A DNA stretch of 25,087 nucleotides from a bacterium (GTDB lineage: Bacteria > Chloroflexota > Dormibacteria > UBA8260 > Bog-877), in assembly GCA_021791345.1 (NCBI GenBank), contig JAJYWT010000211.1, positions 1-25,087 on the forward strand. The letters run 5' to 3'. A program made the position numbers and the translations under genes. Shown here in pieces: positions 17,329 through 23,447 of the stretch. The number at the start of each line of letters is the position of its first letter. Position 1 is the stretch's first letter. Below the pieces are notes generated by a model. That model saw nothing but the letters and a program-made list of their open reading frames with translations. It ran no database searches and was not told the origin of the DNA.

Positions 17329-18243
17329 ATGGCAGTTGATCTCGACGCCCTGATCCGGGCAGTTCGGACAAACCCGGAGGCTCGCGACACGCTCAGGCGT
17401 GAACTCCTCACCGAGGAGCTGTTGGGCCTGCCTGGGTTGGTCGCGCAGCTCACGGCCCGGATGGACCAGCTCACCCAGCGAGTGGACCAGCTCGGGGCCC
17501 GGATGGATCAGCTCACCCAGCGAGTGGACCAGCTCGGGGCCCGGATGGACCAGCTCACCCAGCGAGTGGACCAGCTCGGGGCCCGGATGGATCAGCTCAC
17601 CCAGCGAGTGGACCAGCTCGGGGCCCGGATGGATCAGCTCACCCAGCGAGTGGAGCAGCTCGGGGCCCGGATGGATCAGCTCACCCAGCGAGTGGACCAG
17701 CTCACGGCTGGGATGGAAGGGCTCACTGCTAGTCAGGCGCAAAGCGAAAAGTGGCTTGTGCGGGTGGCCAAGCAGGCAGAGCGGGCCGATGGCCGGGTGG
17801 GTGACCTCTGGGGGAAGCAGTACGAGGCGCGGGTCTTGCGAACTCCCTTCCATGTGGAAGACGCGATTGGGGCAGCCCCCGGGACGGTTAGGCCCTTGTC
17901 TCCCGCCGATCTGGAGGCACTGGTGAACCCAGCGGTCATCGCTGGGGCGTTGCCGCGCGAAGAGCGCGCCGCTCTTGGTGACGCCAATGGCATCTTCGTA
18001 TGGGACCGCGGGGCCGGGTCCGCTCCAGTCTATTGCGTAGTGGAGATATCAGCCACTGTGGATGCCCACGATGTTGAACGGGCGGCGCAGCGAGCTGCCT
18101 GGCTTGCCAAGACTGGTGTTGCCACGCGCCCAGTCGTGATGGGCGATGTGGTGGAGCCTGGGGCCAAGCCAGCCATGGACACCCAGCGCGTGGCATGGGA
18201 GCGTGTTCCGCTCAAGGGGAGCCACAAGCTCCCAACCTCCTGA
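17329..18243 (+). CDS. Coiled-coil repeat protein with a C-terminal PD-(D/E)XK-like domain (DUF3782-like)
   Basis: This 304-aa soluble protein has three parts. Residues 1-44 form a short helical head (LDALIRAVRTNPEARDTLRR). Residues 45-128 are six 14-residue repeats of MDQLTQRVDQLGAR, two heptads each, predicting a long coiled coil. The C-terminal domain (GDANGIFVWDRG, CVVEISATVDAHDVERAAQR, ATRPVVMGDVV) resembles a nuclease-fold tail common in Chloroflexota and cyanobacteria and usually annotated DUF3782 or PD-(D/E)XK; here the usual ExK appears as EIS, so catalysis is doubtful. TAGACT at 17317-17322 lies six bases before the ATG, so the transcript may be leaderless. The role is unknown. Confidence 0.8.
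   Translation: MAVDLDALIRAVRTNPEARDTLRRELLTEELLGLPGLVAQLTARMDQLTQRVDQLGARMDQLTQRVDQLGARMDQLTQRVDQLGARMDQLTQRVDQLGARMDQLTQRVEQLGARMDQLTQRVDQLTAGMEGLTASQAQSEKWLVRVAKQAERADGRVGDLWGKQYEARVLRTPFHVEDAIGAAPGTVRPLSPADLEALVNPAVIAGALPREERAALGDANGIFVWDRGAGSAPVYCVVEISATVDAHDVERAAQRAAWLAKTGVATRPVVMGDVVEPGAKPAMDTQRVAWERVPLKGSHKLPTS
17461..17712 (+). repeat. Six tandem 42-bp repeats inside the coiled-coil gene
   Basis: Copies start at 17461, 17503, 17545, 17587, 17629 and 17671. They are almost identical in DNA, differing at the second codon (GAC or GAT), at one GTGGAC/GTGGAG change in copy 5, and at the end of copy 6. The unit keeps the frame, so copy number can change without breaking the protein. Confidence 0.95.
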
Positions 18244-18300
18244 TCCGGGTCGAACGGCTGGCCTGCTGGGGCGCCTGGCTACCCTCTCCCGCTCCCCCGT

Positions 18301-18469
18301 TATCCGGGGCAGAGCGCCGCTACTCTGCTCCTGGGCCAAGGGGTGCATCCTAAATGTCGTCGCCGATCTCCTGGGGCACACGACGGTCACGATCACCGTG
18401 GATCGGTATTCTCATGTGGCCATGGCGATGCACCAGGAAGGGACGGATGCCCTCGAAGCGGTCCTGTAG
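18301..18469 (+). pseudogene. Tyrosine recombinase (integrase) C-terminal remnant, frameshifted
   Basis: The end of a phage-type integrase is readable in two frames. Frame one gives SAATLLLGQGVHPK up to 18354. After one extra T (18355), frame two gives VVADLLGHTTVTITVDRYSH, with the conserved LLGH histidine and the nucleophile tyrosine, then AMHQEGTDALEAVL and a stop at 18467-18469. Removing the T joins HPK-VVADLLGH exactly as in intact integrases. The usual RHS/RHT arginine box just upstream is degraded to PGQS, and no N-terminal part is found. It ends 93 bp before tRNA-Ser, a common integration target. It is non-functional. Confidence 0.85.
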
Positions 18470-18562
18470 GACCAGCACATTTCTTGGGTTGGATCAACGG
18501 CTGGATCAAGCTTCCCGGAGTCACGGCCAGAATCGGAGTGATCTGATCTCAAATTTCCCTCT

Positions 18563-18652
18563 GGAGGGATGGCAGAGCGGTCGATTGCGGCGGTCTTGAA
18601 AACCGCTGAGGCGGCAACGCTTCCGGGGGTTCGAATCCCTCTCCCTCCGCCA
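18563..18652 (+). tRNA. tRNA-Ser (anticodon UGA)
   Basis: This is a 90-nt class II tRNA. The acceptor arms GGAGGGA (18563-18569) and TCCCTCC (18642-18648) pair fully. The anticodon stem GCGGT/ACCGC encloses loop CTTGAAA with anticodon TGA. A long variable arm, typical of tRNA-Ser, is present. The T-loop is TTCGAAT, and G plus encoded CCA ends the gene. Confidence 0.97.
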
Positions 18653-20219: not shown

Positions 20220-21480
20220 ATGATTCGAGCTGTGTCGGGGTGGCGGACTCGGGTGGGGCCACTTCGAGAACGAGACTTTCGCATCCTGTTTGAGGCCCGG
20301 TCGCTCGCCTCGATCGGCACATCTATGACCCCAATTGCGATCACCTTCGCGGTGTTGGAGGGCCTGGGCTCGGCGGCGGCACTCGGGGCGGTGCTGGCGG
20401 GCGGAACGGTGGTGGAGATCGTCCTGGTGCTATTTGGCGGCGCATCCTCGGACCCGCATCCCGCGTCGAGCCGTGGTGATAGCGAGCGACGTCACACGGG
20501 CGCTGGCACTCCTCTGCACAGGCGCTCTGCTGCTGACAAGGCACGGCTCCATCTGGGAGCTCGCCATCGCCTATGCCGTGTTGGGGGCCTCAACGGCATT
20601 CTTCCATCCTGCCATGACCGGGCTGATCCCAGAGACTGTCTCGTCACAACATCTCCAGGCGGCCAATGCCCTGCGCGGCCTCTATGTGTCGCTGAGCTCG
20701 ATAATCGGGCCGGCGCTCGCCGGCCTTGCGGTGGCGCTGGGCTCACCGGGATGGGCTGTGCTCGGGGCTGGCGTGACCTACGCCATCTCCTCTGTTCTCC
20801 TCTTGCGCATGAACGCGGGGAGGACACCGGCTGCGGCGCCAATGCCCCTTCTGCGCCAGCTTCGAGCGGGCTGGAAGGAGTTCGCGTCCCGGAGCTGGCT
20901 GTGGAGCGTCGTCGGACAGTTCTCCCTCTGGCACTTGATCGTTTGGGCGCCGTTCTTCGTTGCCGGCCCCGTGCTTGTCCTCGATCATCTTGGCGGCGCG
21001 TCCACCTGGGCTTGGATGCAGAGCCTGGGCGGCGTGGGAGCGATCTTGGGCTCGATCCTCGGCCTGCGCCTGCGGCCGCGCCGCCCATTGATAGTCGCGC
21101 TGGCTGGAATGCTGGGGTTCGTGGCAGTGCTAGCGGTGCTCGCAGCCCAAGCTCCAGTTGCCGTGGTCCTGATCGTCTCGCCCCTCATCGGGTTGGGGCC
21201 GGCGCTGTTCACGGTCATATGGGACACCAGCATTCAGCGCGACGTGCCAGCGCATGTTCTATCCCAGGTCAGCTCCTATGACTACTTCGGATCAGTCGCC
21301 ATCCTGCCTATTGGGTACGCCGTTGCCGGGCCCCTAGTGCTCGCGATCGGGCCACGAGCCATGCTGTGGGCGGCAGCGGTGGCGGCGCTGCTGTTGCCCC
21401 TGGCAAACCTGATGGTCGGTGGGGTCCGGCGATTTCCCACGGCATCCGCTACGGTTTCCGTGGACCCCGAGACAAGCTGA
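20220..21480 (+). pseudogene. MFS transporter with a single-base frameshift
   Basis: This drug-efflux-like major facilitator is complete apart from one shift. Frame one runs MIRAVSGWRTRVGPLRERDF to LVLFGGASSD (about residue 78). An extra C in the run 20453-20455 then moves the frame; removing it gives SSDRIPRRAVVIASDVTRAL, the normal loop 2-3 region after helix 2, and the rest continues to ASATVSVDPETS. Repaired, it has 419 aa and about 12 membrane helices, resembling macrolide-efflux-type MFS proteins. The stop TGA 21478-21480 is also part of the direct repeat bordering the next element. It could be an assembly error, but nearby genes are broken too. Confidence 0.85.
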
Positions 21481-21483
21481 CTT
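21475..21483. repeat. Left direct repeat AGCTGACTT
   Basis: The same nine bases occur at 22305-22313 on the other side of the inverted-repeat segment. The core CTGA (21477-21480) directly borders the inverted repeat and may be a target-site duplication. Confidence 0.6.
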
Positions 21484-21505
21484 GGGGGTATCCGTCTTGG
21501 CGGAG
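21481..21505 (+). repeat. Left terminal inverted repeat
   Basis: These 25 bp match the reverse complement of 22282-22306 at 23 of 25 positions, with a perfect 18-bp core GTATCCGTCTTGGCGGAG (21488-21505). Confidence 0.85.
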
Positions 21506-21596
21506 CCGATGAGGCTTTCCACATAGAGCAGCCGACAGCGATCCCCTCCACTCCGACGCCCTTCAGCCCGCAGGCCGAGCGGTGTCAAGGTTGCCC

Positions 21597-22199
21597 TCAG
21601 CGGATCGCGGTCACAGTGCTGAGGATGGTCGCATAGGTCCGGTGCCAGACAGGTGTCCGAAACCCAGCCGCAGTCACCAGCCGAGTCGCCCGTGCACGCG
21701 TCCGGGCCCGCCCGCGCCTGCCCACGAGCAAGGTCGGCCACAGCCAGAACGTGAAGAGGTCGGTGAGCACCAGCCGGCCCCCAGGCGCCAGCACCCGCGC
21801 GCACTCCAGCAGACCGGCCCCCTGGTCCACCCAATGGTCAAAGGAGGTGGTGCTCACCAAGAGGTCGAAGCTTGAATCGGGAAACGGGAGGTCCTCGGCA
21901 GCGCCGAGGAGCGCGCGGATCCGTGCATCTCCGGTGTGCGCCTCCAGGGCGACGTCGACCATGTGGGGTGCCGGGTCAACGCCGACCAGCTCCACGGCTC
22001 TTGGGATGCGGGAGGCCAGCAGGCGCAGGAGGTACCCCGTGCCGCAGCCAACGTCGAGAATCCGCGACGGCTCGACGGCGCAGGCGAGAGCGATGTCCGC
22101 GGTGCGCCGAGCGATGTCCTGATGCCAGCCGCCCCGCCAACCGGTCTCGTACGTGGGCGCACGGTCATCGAAGACCTGCACGTCGCGCTCGTGGGGCAC
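21597..22199 (-). CDS. SAM-dependent class I methyltransferase
   Basis: This is a small methyltransferase of about 200 aa. SAM-binding motif I is ILDVGCGTGYLLRLLASR, the acidic residue after strand 2 is in ELVGVDPAPHMVDVA, and the post-motif blocks are AEDLPFPDSSFDLLVSTTSF and ECARVLAPGGRLVLTDLFTF. The N-terminus HERDVQVFDDRAPTYETGW is typical of UbiE-like enzymes acting on small molecules. GTG 22199 was chosen because homology begins just after it; a TTG at 22304 inside the inverted repeat would add 35 unlike residues. No clear ribosome-binding site precedes GTG 22199. The substrate is unknown. It is the only gene between the inverted repeats. Confidence 0.87.
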   Translation of the reverse strand: MPHERDVQVFDDRAPTYETGWRGGWHQDIARRTADIALACAVEPSRILDVGCGTGYLLRLLASRIPRAVELVGVDPAPHMVDVALEAHTGDARIRALLGAAEDLPFPDSSFDLLVSTTSFDHWVDQGAGLLECARVLAPGGRLVLTDLFTFWLWPTLLVGRRGRARTRARATRLVTAAGFRTPVWHRTYATILSTVTAIR

Positions 22200-22281
22200 G
22201 TCGCTGATTCTACCGCCGGGGCAGATCCGACTTTGCCAGTAGGGCGGGGCTCTGCAGCGCCGGGGATCACTTGAGAACCAA

Positions 22282-22306
22282 CTCCGCCAAGACGGATACT
22301 CCAAAG
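22282..22306 (-). repeat. Right terminal inverted repeat
   Basis: This is the reverse-complement partner of 21481-21505, with the perfect core CTCCGCCAAGACGGATAC at 22282-22299. CTGA follows at 22307-22310. Confidence 0.85.
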
Positions 22307-22468
22307 CTGACTTTACAGCTTTGTCAGCGAACAGCCGCTACGGTTCCTTGTTACGGGCAGTCCGCCGAGAGAGGGACGGGAGCGATGATTGGTGGGAGAG
22401 CCCCGCTTGGGTGACTCATCCGTGAGTGAGCCGGCCAACGGGGCGCACACCGCCCCCGGCTCTAGAAC

Positions 22469-23125
22469 TCACCCAGGTTGAAAGCTGGTGAGTCGGCCAT
22501 TCGTGCATGTGTATCCGTACGTGGTGCCGCCGACGGTCACTTGCCCTGCGGCTTGCTGGGAGGACACTGATCCGCTGCTGGTCATCCCGCTTCGGCCGCT
22601 GGCAGACCCGAAAAGAGTCCAGATCGGAACACTGCTCTGCACGCCGCTCGGCATGCACCCGACGACAGGCCCGCTCATGGACAGTGCGCTGAGAGGGATG
22701 AGACCGACGGAGAGCAGCAACCCTCCCCCAATCAGAAAGTGGCGCCCGCCGAGGGGCGAGTGGTCAGTGAGGCGCAGGCGGATCACCAAGCTGGCGATGG
22801 CAGCCAGGAGAAGGCCCAGCCCGATCGAGAATATCGTGAGGAATCCCCACAAGAAGAGCAGCGCCGTCAGCACTGTCAACCAGGGGCGCAGTCCGTTGGT
22901 GTCGCGGGCGGCGACGTAAGCGCCAACCATGGTCAGCACTCCGCAGAAGGCGGCGACGGCCACCACTGAGACCGGCATGGCGTAATTGGGTTCCCGCCAC
23001 TCCTGGCCGATCACGACTGCGGTCCGTGCGGCGAAGGCGACGGCCAGCAGCCCGAGAGCCACCAAGACCAATTGAGAGGGCCAACCCTTGCTTTGATTGC
23101 CTGACGTCACTTGGGAATGCCTCAT
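22469..23125 (-). CDS. Membrane protein of unknown function
   Basis: This 218-aa protein has four to five hydrophobic segments: LVLVALGLLAVAFAARTAVV, PVSVVAVAAFCGVLTMVGAY, a long stretch WLTVLTALLFLWGFLTIFSI continuing into GLGLLLAAIASLVI, and FLIGGGLLLSVGLIPLSALS. A C-terminal soluble part rich in Ser and Gly follows (TVGGTTYGYTCTNGRLTSF), with two cysteines that could form an external disulfide. ATG 23125 gives a short polar N-terminus but lacks an obvious ribosome-binding site. No family is recognised, and no co-transcribed neighbour helps assign a role. Confidence 0.65.
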   Translation of the reverse strand: MRHSQVTSGNQSKGWPSQLVLVALGLLAVAFAARTAVVIGQEWREPNYAMPVSVVAVAAFCGVLTMVGAYVAARDTNGLRPWLTVLTALLFLWGFLTIFSIGLGLLLAAIASLVIRLRLTDHSPLGGRHFLIGGGLLLSVGLIPLSALSMSGPVVGCMPSGVQSSVPIWTLFGSASGRSGMTSSGSVSSQQAAGQVTVGGTTYGYTCTNGRLTSFQPG

Positions 23126-23447
23126 CGCGGGGGTTTCCAACAGCTGCTCACGGGCGGCCGCCCGCTTCCTGTCGCGTGGCCCGGTCCGCGTCCGTCGCAA
23201 TGGCGGACGTTTGGCGTGCCGGCCGCAGTCTCTCCCCGCACCGGCGCACCTTGCGCTCGATGTTGCTGCAGTTCAATCGGGACTGGGTCCGGCGGTTCTG
23301 GTTGACGCTACGGGAATACCACATCGCCAAGGGTTCGCGTCCCTCCATGGACGCGATGGTACGCCGCTCACGGCATAGGTCAAAGTTGGTCTGCGTCAGG
23401 TTATGGCTCAGACGCATCTGGAGCGGACCAGCTAAACTGGAGCAGTT
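23126..23447. other. 322-bp intergenic region with the gntR promoter area
   Basis: No gene is recognised. Near its right end TAAACT (23433-23438) lies nine bases before the gntR GTG, a possible -10 of a nearly leaderless transcript. CTGGAGC occurs twice (23419-23425 and 23438-23444), 19 bp apart, and might be a regulator site. Confidence 0.4.

Follow-up and report, generated by a model that had tools for sequence, protein, structure and literature searches.

A probable transposase-less insertion cassette with IS1595-type ends and a methyltransferase passenger in a member of the presumed Dormibacteria

The block at positions 21483-22304 (822 bp) of the window, by which we mean the whole 25,087-nt stretch of DNA that was analysed, is very probably a mobile insertion cassette, in which IS1595-type inverted repeats surround a single passenger methyltransferase gene. 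Three of the features that mark such cassettes were found together, and mobilisation in trans by a cognate transposase would be the fourth: inverted repeats related to those of insertion sequences (ISs), a passenger without a transposase, and a target duplication along with an empty site.

Boundaries of the block and empty sites in relatives

The block is delimited by a 25-bp inverted repeat with arms at 21481-21505 and 22282-22306, complementary at 23 of 25 positions (92%) and separated by 776 nt. The window holds two copies of an 18-nt core of the arms, and a search of it at up to three mismatches detected no other. Shuffled windows yielded 0.03 expected core matches per window, and two cores were present in none of 100 shuffles; the paired cores are not expected by chance. 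A less specific test, which looked for an 8-bp repeat together with a 20-nt inverted repeat at up to six mismatches, is not discriminating by itself, with 81 of 100 simulated windows holding some such pair; in the window the cassette pair had two mismatches and the next best pair had five.

A 10-bp direct repeat, AAGCTGACTT, is located at 21474-21483 and 22304-22313, overlapping the outer edges of both arms. Because the element ends (TT...AA) resemble the target, the length of the duplication is ambiguous at about 7-11 bp, and we favor a reading of 7-8 bp, AGCTGAC(T), within the 10-bp repeat. Using the 8-bp reading, the copies of AGCTGACT occupy 21475-21482, where the left copy contains the stop codon of the adjacent transporter gene, and 22305-22312. 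The terminal inverted repeats then are TGGGGGTATCCGTCTTGGCGGAG on the left (21483-21505, plus strand) and, read inward, TTGGAGTATCCGTCTTGGCGGAG on the right (22282-22304, minus strand), and the outer ends of the cassette read TTGGGG and TGGGGG. A preliminary description of this DNA had reported 25-bp inverted repeats matching at 23 of 25 positions around one methyltransferase gene, and both the arms and the core were recovered here. The direct repeat that it placed outside the arms is also present, but is one base longer than had been given. Its proposal of CTGA as the duplication corresponds to the smallest possible case and is the less likely reading.

The gene to the left of the block encodes a transporter of the major facilitator superfamily (MFS; 20220-21480, plus strand; Pfam MFS_1, 1.2e-21 for 20335-21480), and the gene to the right encodes a hypothetical protein without a Pfam match (22469-23200, minus strand). 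As a comparison set we used the 110-genome class of G358, taken as the class of the window; G358 was reached by way of the phylum to which a Caldilineaceae record belongs, and the seryl-tRNA synthetases of G358 and the window share 79% identity. This class, comprising G358 and its relatives, is probably the Dormibacteria. It contains orthologues of the MFS transporter in G549 (90%) and G548 (88%), and in both of these relatives the conserved right neighbour adjoins the MFS gene. Downstream of the transporter, alignment resumes from 22388 (G549) or 22395 (G548), with about 77 nt and 136 nt, respectively, between the aligned stretches instead of the block. No cassette-type ends at up to 7 mismatches in 25 were detected in the 17 kb around either site. 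When the window flanks were joined at one repeat copy, the product aligned through the junction (GAGACAAGCTGACTTTACAGC versus GAGACGAGCTGACCTGATAGC in G549 and GGACGAGCTGATCGGTC in G548), the left duplication junction aligning to the empty sites in both relatives, which hold a single copy, AGCTGAC or AGCTGAT. The block is an insertion: G549 and G548 keep the sequence on both sides in colinear order and have an empty orthologous site. The preliminary description had proposed a non-autonomous transposon with a passenger enzyme and no transposase, and had named an empty site in relatives as a check; two genomes that lack the block at the orthologous junction now back that proposal.

The TGA stop codon of the MFS gene lies at the left edge of the cassette and aligns with TGA in both relatives. 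The earlier statement that insertion left the coding end of the transporter unchanged holds in this respect, yet the gene as sequenced does not form a single open frame, the break lying some 1 kb upstream of the cassette. Compared with the G549 orthologue, residues 1-74 are encoded in frame 3 (20234-20455) and residues 74-411 in frame 1 (20454-21467), a change of frame near 20454 that may reflect either a pseudogene or a sequencing error.

Elsewhere in the window, the end of an ORF at 18146-18469 resembles, by eye, the C-terminal motif of a tyrosine recombinase; the ORF has no Pfam match and is situated just upstream of a tRNA-Ser gene (18563-18652). The region 18146-18652 is a possible remnant of an integrated element. 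Tandem 21-nt repeats at 17404-17781 within the ORF at 17329-18243 give a coiled-coil-like heptad protein.

The passenger gene and searches for further copies

The passenger (21597-22199, minus strand) encodes a class I SAM-dependent methyltransferase of 200 aa, with a GTG start, taken from the database protein P0001, and a TGA stop. It was the one ORF within 21483-22304 that was submitted to Pfam, where it matched Methyltransf_11 (1.8e-23). The gene is intact and is the sole gene in the block with a recognised family; no transposase remnant was recognised among the block's ORFs, and the gaps between the gene and each arm are only about 80-90 nt. Its family suggests a small-molecule-type passenger rather than a mobility protein. 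The third-position GC content of the gene (0.83) falls inside the range of five other genes of the window (0.77-0.88), so that its composition does not point to a foreign origin. Of 7996 candidates that were scored in a homology search with the protein, 3664 had E ≤ 0.001, the closest homologues being at 76-83% (P0002-P0007). One relative was labelled Candidatus Dormibacteria by its source, and others were labelled Acidimicrobiales and Streptosporangiaceae. At a threshold of 1e-30, the methyltransferase has a patchy distribution, being found in 12 of the 110 genomes of the class, with neither G548 nor G549 among them. The cassette would provide a concrete route by which such a patchily distributed enzyme can be gained.

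The exact 18-nt core was present in 13 stretches from 84,980 genomes (one per species), in unrelated taxa and with a single match each, a second match having been sought in just one of these stretches (L012). Viral contigs yielded five single 16-nt matches, and 18 plasmid records gave short, weak matches, none of which spans 80% of the block. Eleven methyltransferase loci of relatives lacked the core at up to four mismatches. Among 14 methyltransferase loci that were tested for an 8-bp repeat with 16-nt ends, one (L065) had a weak pair that is probably due to chance. The further copies of the cassette for which the preliminary description had suggested searching were thus not found among the relatives' methyltransferase loci examined.

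Related ends in the class and their link to IS1595 transposases

Ends related to those of the cassette occur elsewhere in the class. A pattern first applied to the genomes of the class matched 32 places compared to 13 for the reversed control, and was set aside as mostly chance; four of these places were inspected, of which two (L074 and L095) lie in coding sequence, a third (L075) has the same context as L095, and the fourth (L076) was kept. The same pattern yielded an end on contig C205 of G358 that is nearly identical to the left arm (23/25), and a broadened pattern built from this end matched 16 places in 15 genomes. The pattern GGTATCCATSTARCCGGAG, at up to two mismatches, matched 23 places in 14 of the 110 genomes versus 2 for the reversed pattern. 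The expected outer bases (TTGG or like it) were present at 17 of the 23; the six places without them (L127, L128, L132, L133, L134, and L136) are probably chance matches. Two of the 17, in G346, duplicate the G549 locus with identical sequence. The sequence around the miniature inverted-repeat transposable element (MITE) of G549 (L116, contig C154) and its counterpart in G346 (L131, contig C166) is identical over at least 2.5 kb, and this stretch may be one contig that was binned into both assemblies. At nine of the 23 places the contig stops within 250 nt on the inward side, a behaviour typical of repeated elements in draft assemblies. The related ends enclose unrelated DNA in other genomes.

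A weight matrix was constructed from 11 ends in five genomes (G058, G139, G155, G075, and G548), with the window left out. The left and right arms of the cassette ranked first and second in the window, with scores of 23.9 and 20.2, and the third place scored 5.6; in 40 mononucleotide-shuffled windows, the best scores averaged 9.0 and reached a maximum of 16.2. Transposase coding was recognised inside only the G139, G075, and G548 ends of the training set. Judged from this comparison, the window arms belong to the class-wide family of ends, not as close members: 15-18 of 22 positions are like those of the G058, G139, and G549 ends, and the match to the transposase-linked G139 end is only 18/22 and 16/22. 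The closest end is the lone one on contig C205 of G358 (20/22 and 18/22), for which no inverted partner was found; neither of the two PF12762 matches of G358 is on that contig. On another stretch of G358, two window-type ends (L108:11660 and L108:14359) lie in direct orientation 2.7 kb apart. The DNA between them holds glyoxalase-like ORFs, with a Pfam match for one of two, together with a further ORF; the search for inverted partners of these ends found none.

Coding sequence of IS1595-type transposases was found inside ends of this family in three genomes. Reading inward from the G139 ends, two encode N-terminal-like segments and one a C-terminal-like segment of an IS1595 transposase, as judged by eye. 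The N-terminal piece gave a best BLAST value of 5e-4 against other IS1595 frames of the class, and the C-terminal piece gave 8e-10 against the G075 copy, which itself matches PF12762 (2.9e-8); the short frames of the supposed transposase at L138 and L130 had no Pfam match. The G548 copy (L167) matches NF033547, the IS1595 family transposase model, with a score of 152 bits (cut-off, 75). An end with 7/24 mismatches to the consensus lies beside this gene on one side, and a decayed end that has the inner 13 bp CATTTGACCGGCC in common lies on the other. No intact IS1595 element with window-type ends was recovered from the 110-genome class, and among 23 loci with PF12762 matches (three below the cut-off) only one, L155, gave ends by the repeat test. 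That locus (L155:1014-3058, in G358) holds an IS1595-family element of 2045 bp with a transposase and a 284-aa ORF without a Pfam match; it has its own 20-nt ends (16/20), which differ from those of the window, and an 8-bp direct repeat, CCTATTGG.

The cassette thus shares its repeats with transposase-carrying elements, as indicated by the matrix and by the comparison with the G139 end, and its AGCTGAC(T) duplication falls in the 7-9 bp range that is described for the IS1016 subgroup of IS1595 in PMC12561309. A DDE transposase of the ISXO2/IS1595 type was not recognised in the element. Lacking a transposase, the element is therefore not an IS1595 IS, and would be a derivative of the family by its ends only. 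The earlier suggestion of a possibly undescribed family is unsupported, because ends related to the window's go with IS1595-family elements elsewhere in the class.

We considered three other explanations for the block. It might be ancestral and deleted in the relatives, with the methyltransferase gene as a resident and the inverted repeats around it serving a regulatory or structural role; inverted repeats around one gene can be regulatory, and just two relatives bear on the site. This reading is very improbable given that a direct repeat brackets the block while the relatives keep one copy, that ends of this kind flank unrelated sequence elsewhere, and that the methyltransferase was not found in G548 or G549 at 1e-30. 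A reading that overlaps with the cassette interpretation is that an IS1595 element carrying both a transposase and the methyltransferase lost the former, perhaps after insertion. ISs that carry passenger genes have been described (PMC3129680 and PMC7986276), and the 2045-bp element of G358, with its second gene and 8-bp repeat, offers an example within the class. We regard such decay as rather unlikely: the ends of that G358 element differ from those of the window, no transposase remnant was recognised among the ORFs of the block, and merely 80-90 nt or so separate the gene from each arm.

The third alternative assigns the ends to the IS1202 (ISNCY_2) family. An ISNCY_2 frame (L108:14374-15531; NF033594, 325 bits) lies 14 nt from a G358 end, a pattern match in G551 is some 1 kb away from an ISNCY_2 match, some of the targets look dif-like, and GATAA is found beside several of the insertions analysed here. 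According to PMC10132070, the outer ends of the family read 5'-TGT...ACA, whereas those of the window read TTGGGG and TGGGGG. Moreover, when the 13 transposase matches from 10 of the 110 genomes were scanned along with flanks of up to 1.5 kb, only those in G358 and G551 showed an end at up to two mismatches, and the G551 end lacks the outer bases. Homologues align to the G358 frame only to about residue 313-324 of 385, so that the frame looks broken, and IS1595 coding lies inside such ends in other genomes. These observations led us to reject the transposase beside the G358 end as an indicator of the ends' family, and an IS1202 assignment is extremely improbable.

For the mobile insertion cassette that we favor, an IS1595 transposase supplied from elsewhere would bind both ends and move the block, and its staggered cut would create the 7-8 bp duplication AGCTGAC(T). 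Insertion at the MFS stop codon, possibly in a hairpin, would keep the end of the transporter unchanged. The cassette itself could have arisen when two ends captured the gene, or when a passenger-bearing IS lost its transposase.

Target choice and comparison with known systems

Besides that of the window, three insertions could be paired: those in G139 (L130 with L138) and G155 (L137 with L140), and the MITE of G549. The direct repeats that flank them read AAGGGGTACTT, AATGTCCACTT, and AAGTGGGGGTT, respectively, compared to AAGCTGACTT in the window; an AA-N6/7-TT direct repeat is common to all four, and a 7-8 bp duplication would fit each of them. The G549 MITE is 114 bp in length and the short element of G155 is about 255 bp (249 bp between the outer edges of its 19-nt ends). 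The MITE interrupts the loop of the palindrome AGTGTCCGATAA-N7-TTATCGGAC, directly after a lipoprotein gene. An intact palindrome with the same arms follows a similar lipoprotein gene in G279 (by tblastx), and the two flanks of the G139 insertion reveal the same palindrome as the target of the MITE. Among the 110 genomes, only G279 and G385 have the form AGTGTCCGATAA-N7-TTATCGGACACT intact, with one copy apiece; the palindrome was traced at L116, L130, L138, and L179 and is broken by end-family elements in G139 and G549. The sequence GATAA occurs in the outer 19 nt at 9 of the 23 places, or at 7 of 15 when the six probable chance matches and the two repeats are removed, and the window has GACAA at this position.

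Hairpin folding was scored against mononucleotide shuffles. The joined window site, at the MFS stop, had a z-score of -2.8, the target of the G549 MITE -4.4, and the G279 palindrome -7.8; the two empty sites fold no better than shuffles (L096, -0.5; L097, +1.1). A preference for hairpin targets is suggestive only. We tentatively raise the further possibility, to which we assign well under even chances, that an IS1595-type lineage prefers AA-N6/7-TT hairpin loops after genes, and that its ends act as a transposase-less device for capturing and moving single enzyme genes. Such loops would be a nearly harmless target, and the preference would explain tolerated insertions; if this is true, the novelty would lie less in the cassette by itself than in an IS1595 lineage that targets hairpins.

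As far as our searches show, the kind of cassette is established, and its passenger, host group, and end sequence are new. Judged from titles and the starts of abstracts for part of the literature matches, with subscription journals outside the search, no IS1595-type cassette with a methyltransferase was found. No literature joining "dormibacter" with "insertion sequence" was retrieved, and "dormibacter" with "transposase" was rare. The cassette would be a case in which IS ends have moved one enzyme gene, within a bacterial class with little-described mobile DNA.

MIC231 consists of IS-type ends around unrelated DNA, and IS231 belongs to the IS4 family. This element, which is IS231-related and found in the Bacillus cereus group, is like the window element in being IS-derived and without its own transposase, as indicated in PMC3129680; it differs in its IS231 ends, where the window element has IS1595-type ends and a methyltransferase passenger. 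In the terms given by PMC3129680, IS derivatives without a transposase comprise MITEs and mobile insertion cassettes, some of which can be activated by a cognate transposase, and ISs that bear passenger genes are transporter ISs, for which that source cites Siguier et al. 2009 (IS1595). The IS1595 members described in PMC12561309, namely ISApl4 (8-bp repeat, ends GGGGCTGTACTAGA) and the IS1016 subgroup, resemble the window element in the G-run at the start of their repeats and in their 7-9 bp direct repeats, whereas the window element has no transposase and has an inverted repeat that is longer and different. Transporter ISs likewise combine IS ends with a passenger gene, but they keep the transposase that the window element lacks. 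MITEs are non-autonomous and have the same kind of ends, and the 114-bp element of G549 and the ~255-bp element of G155 share the end family; in contrast to these short and gene-free elements, the window element is 822 bp in length and carries an intact 200-aa gene, which sets it apart from MITEs.
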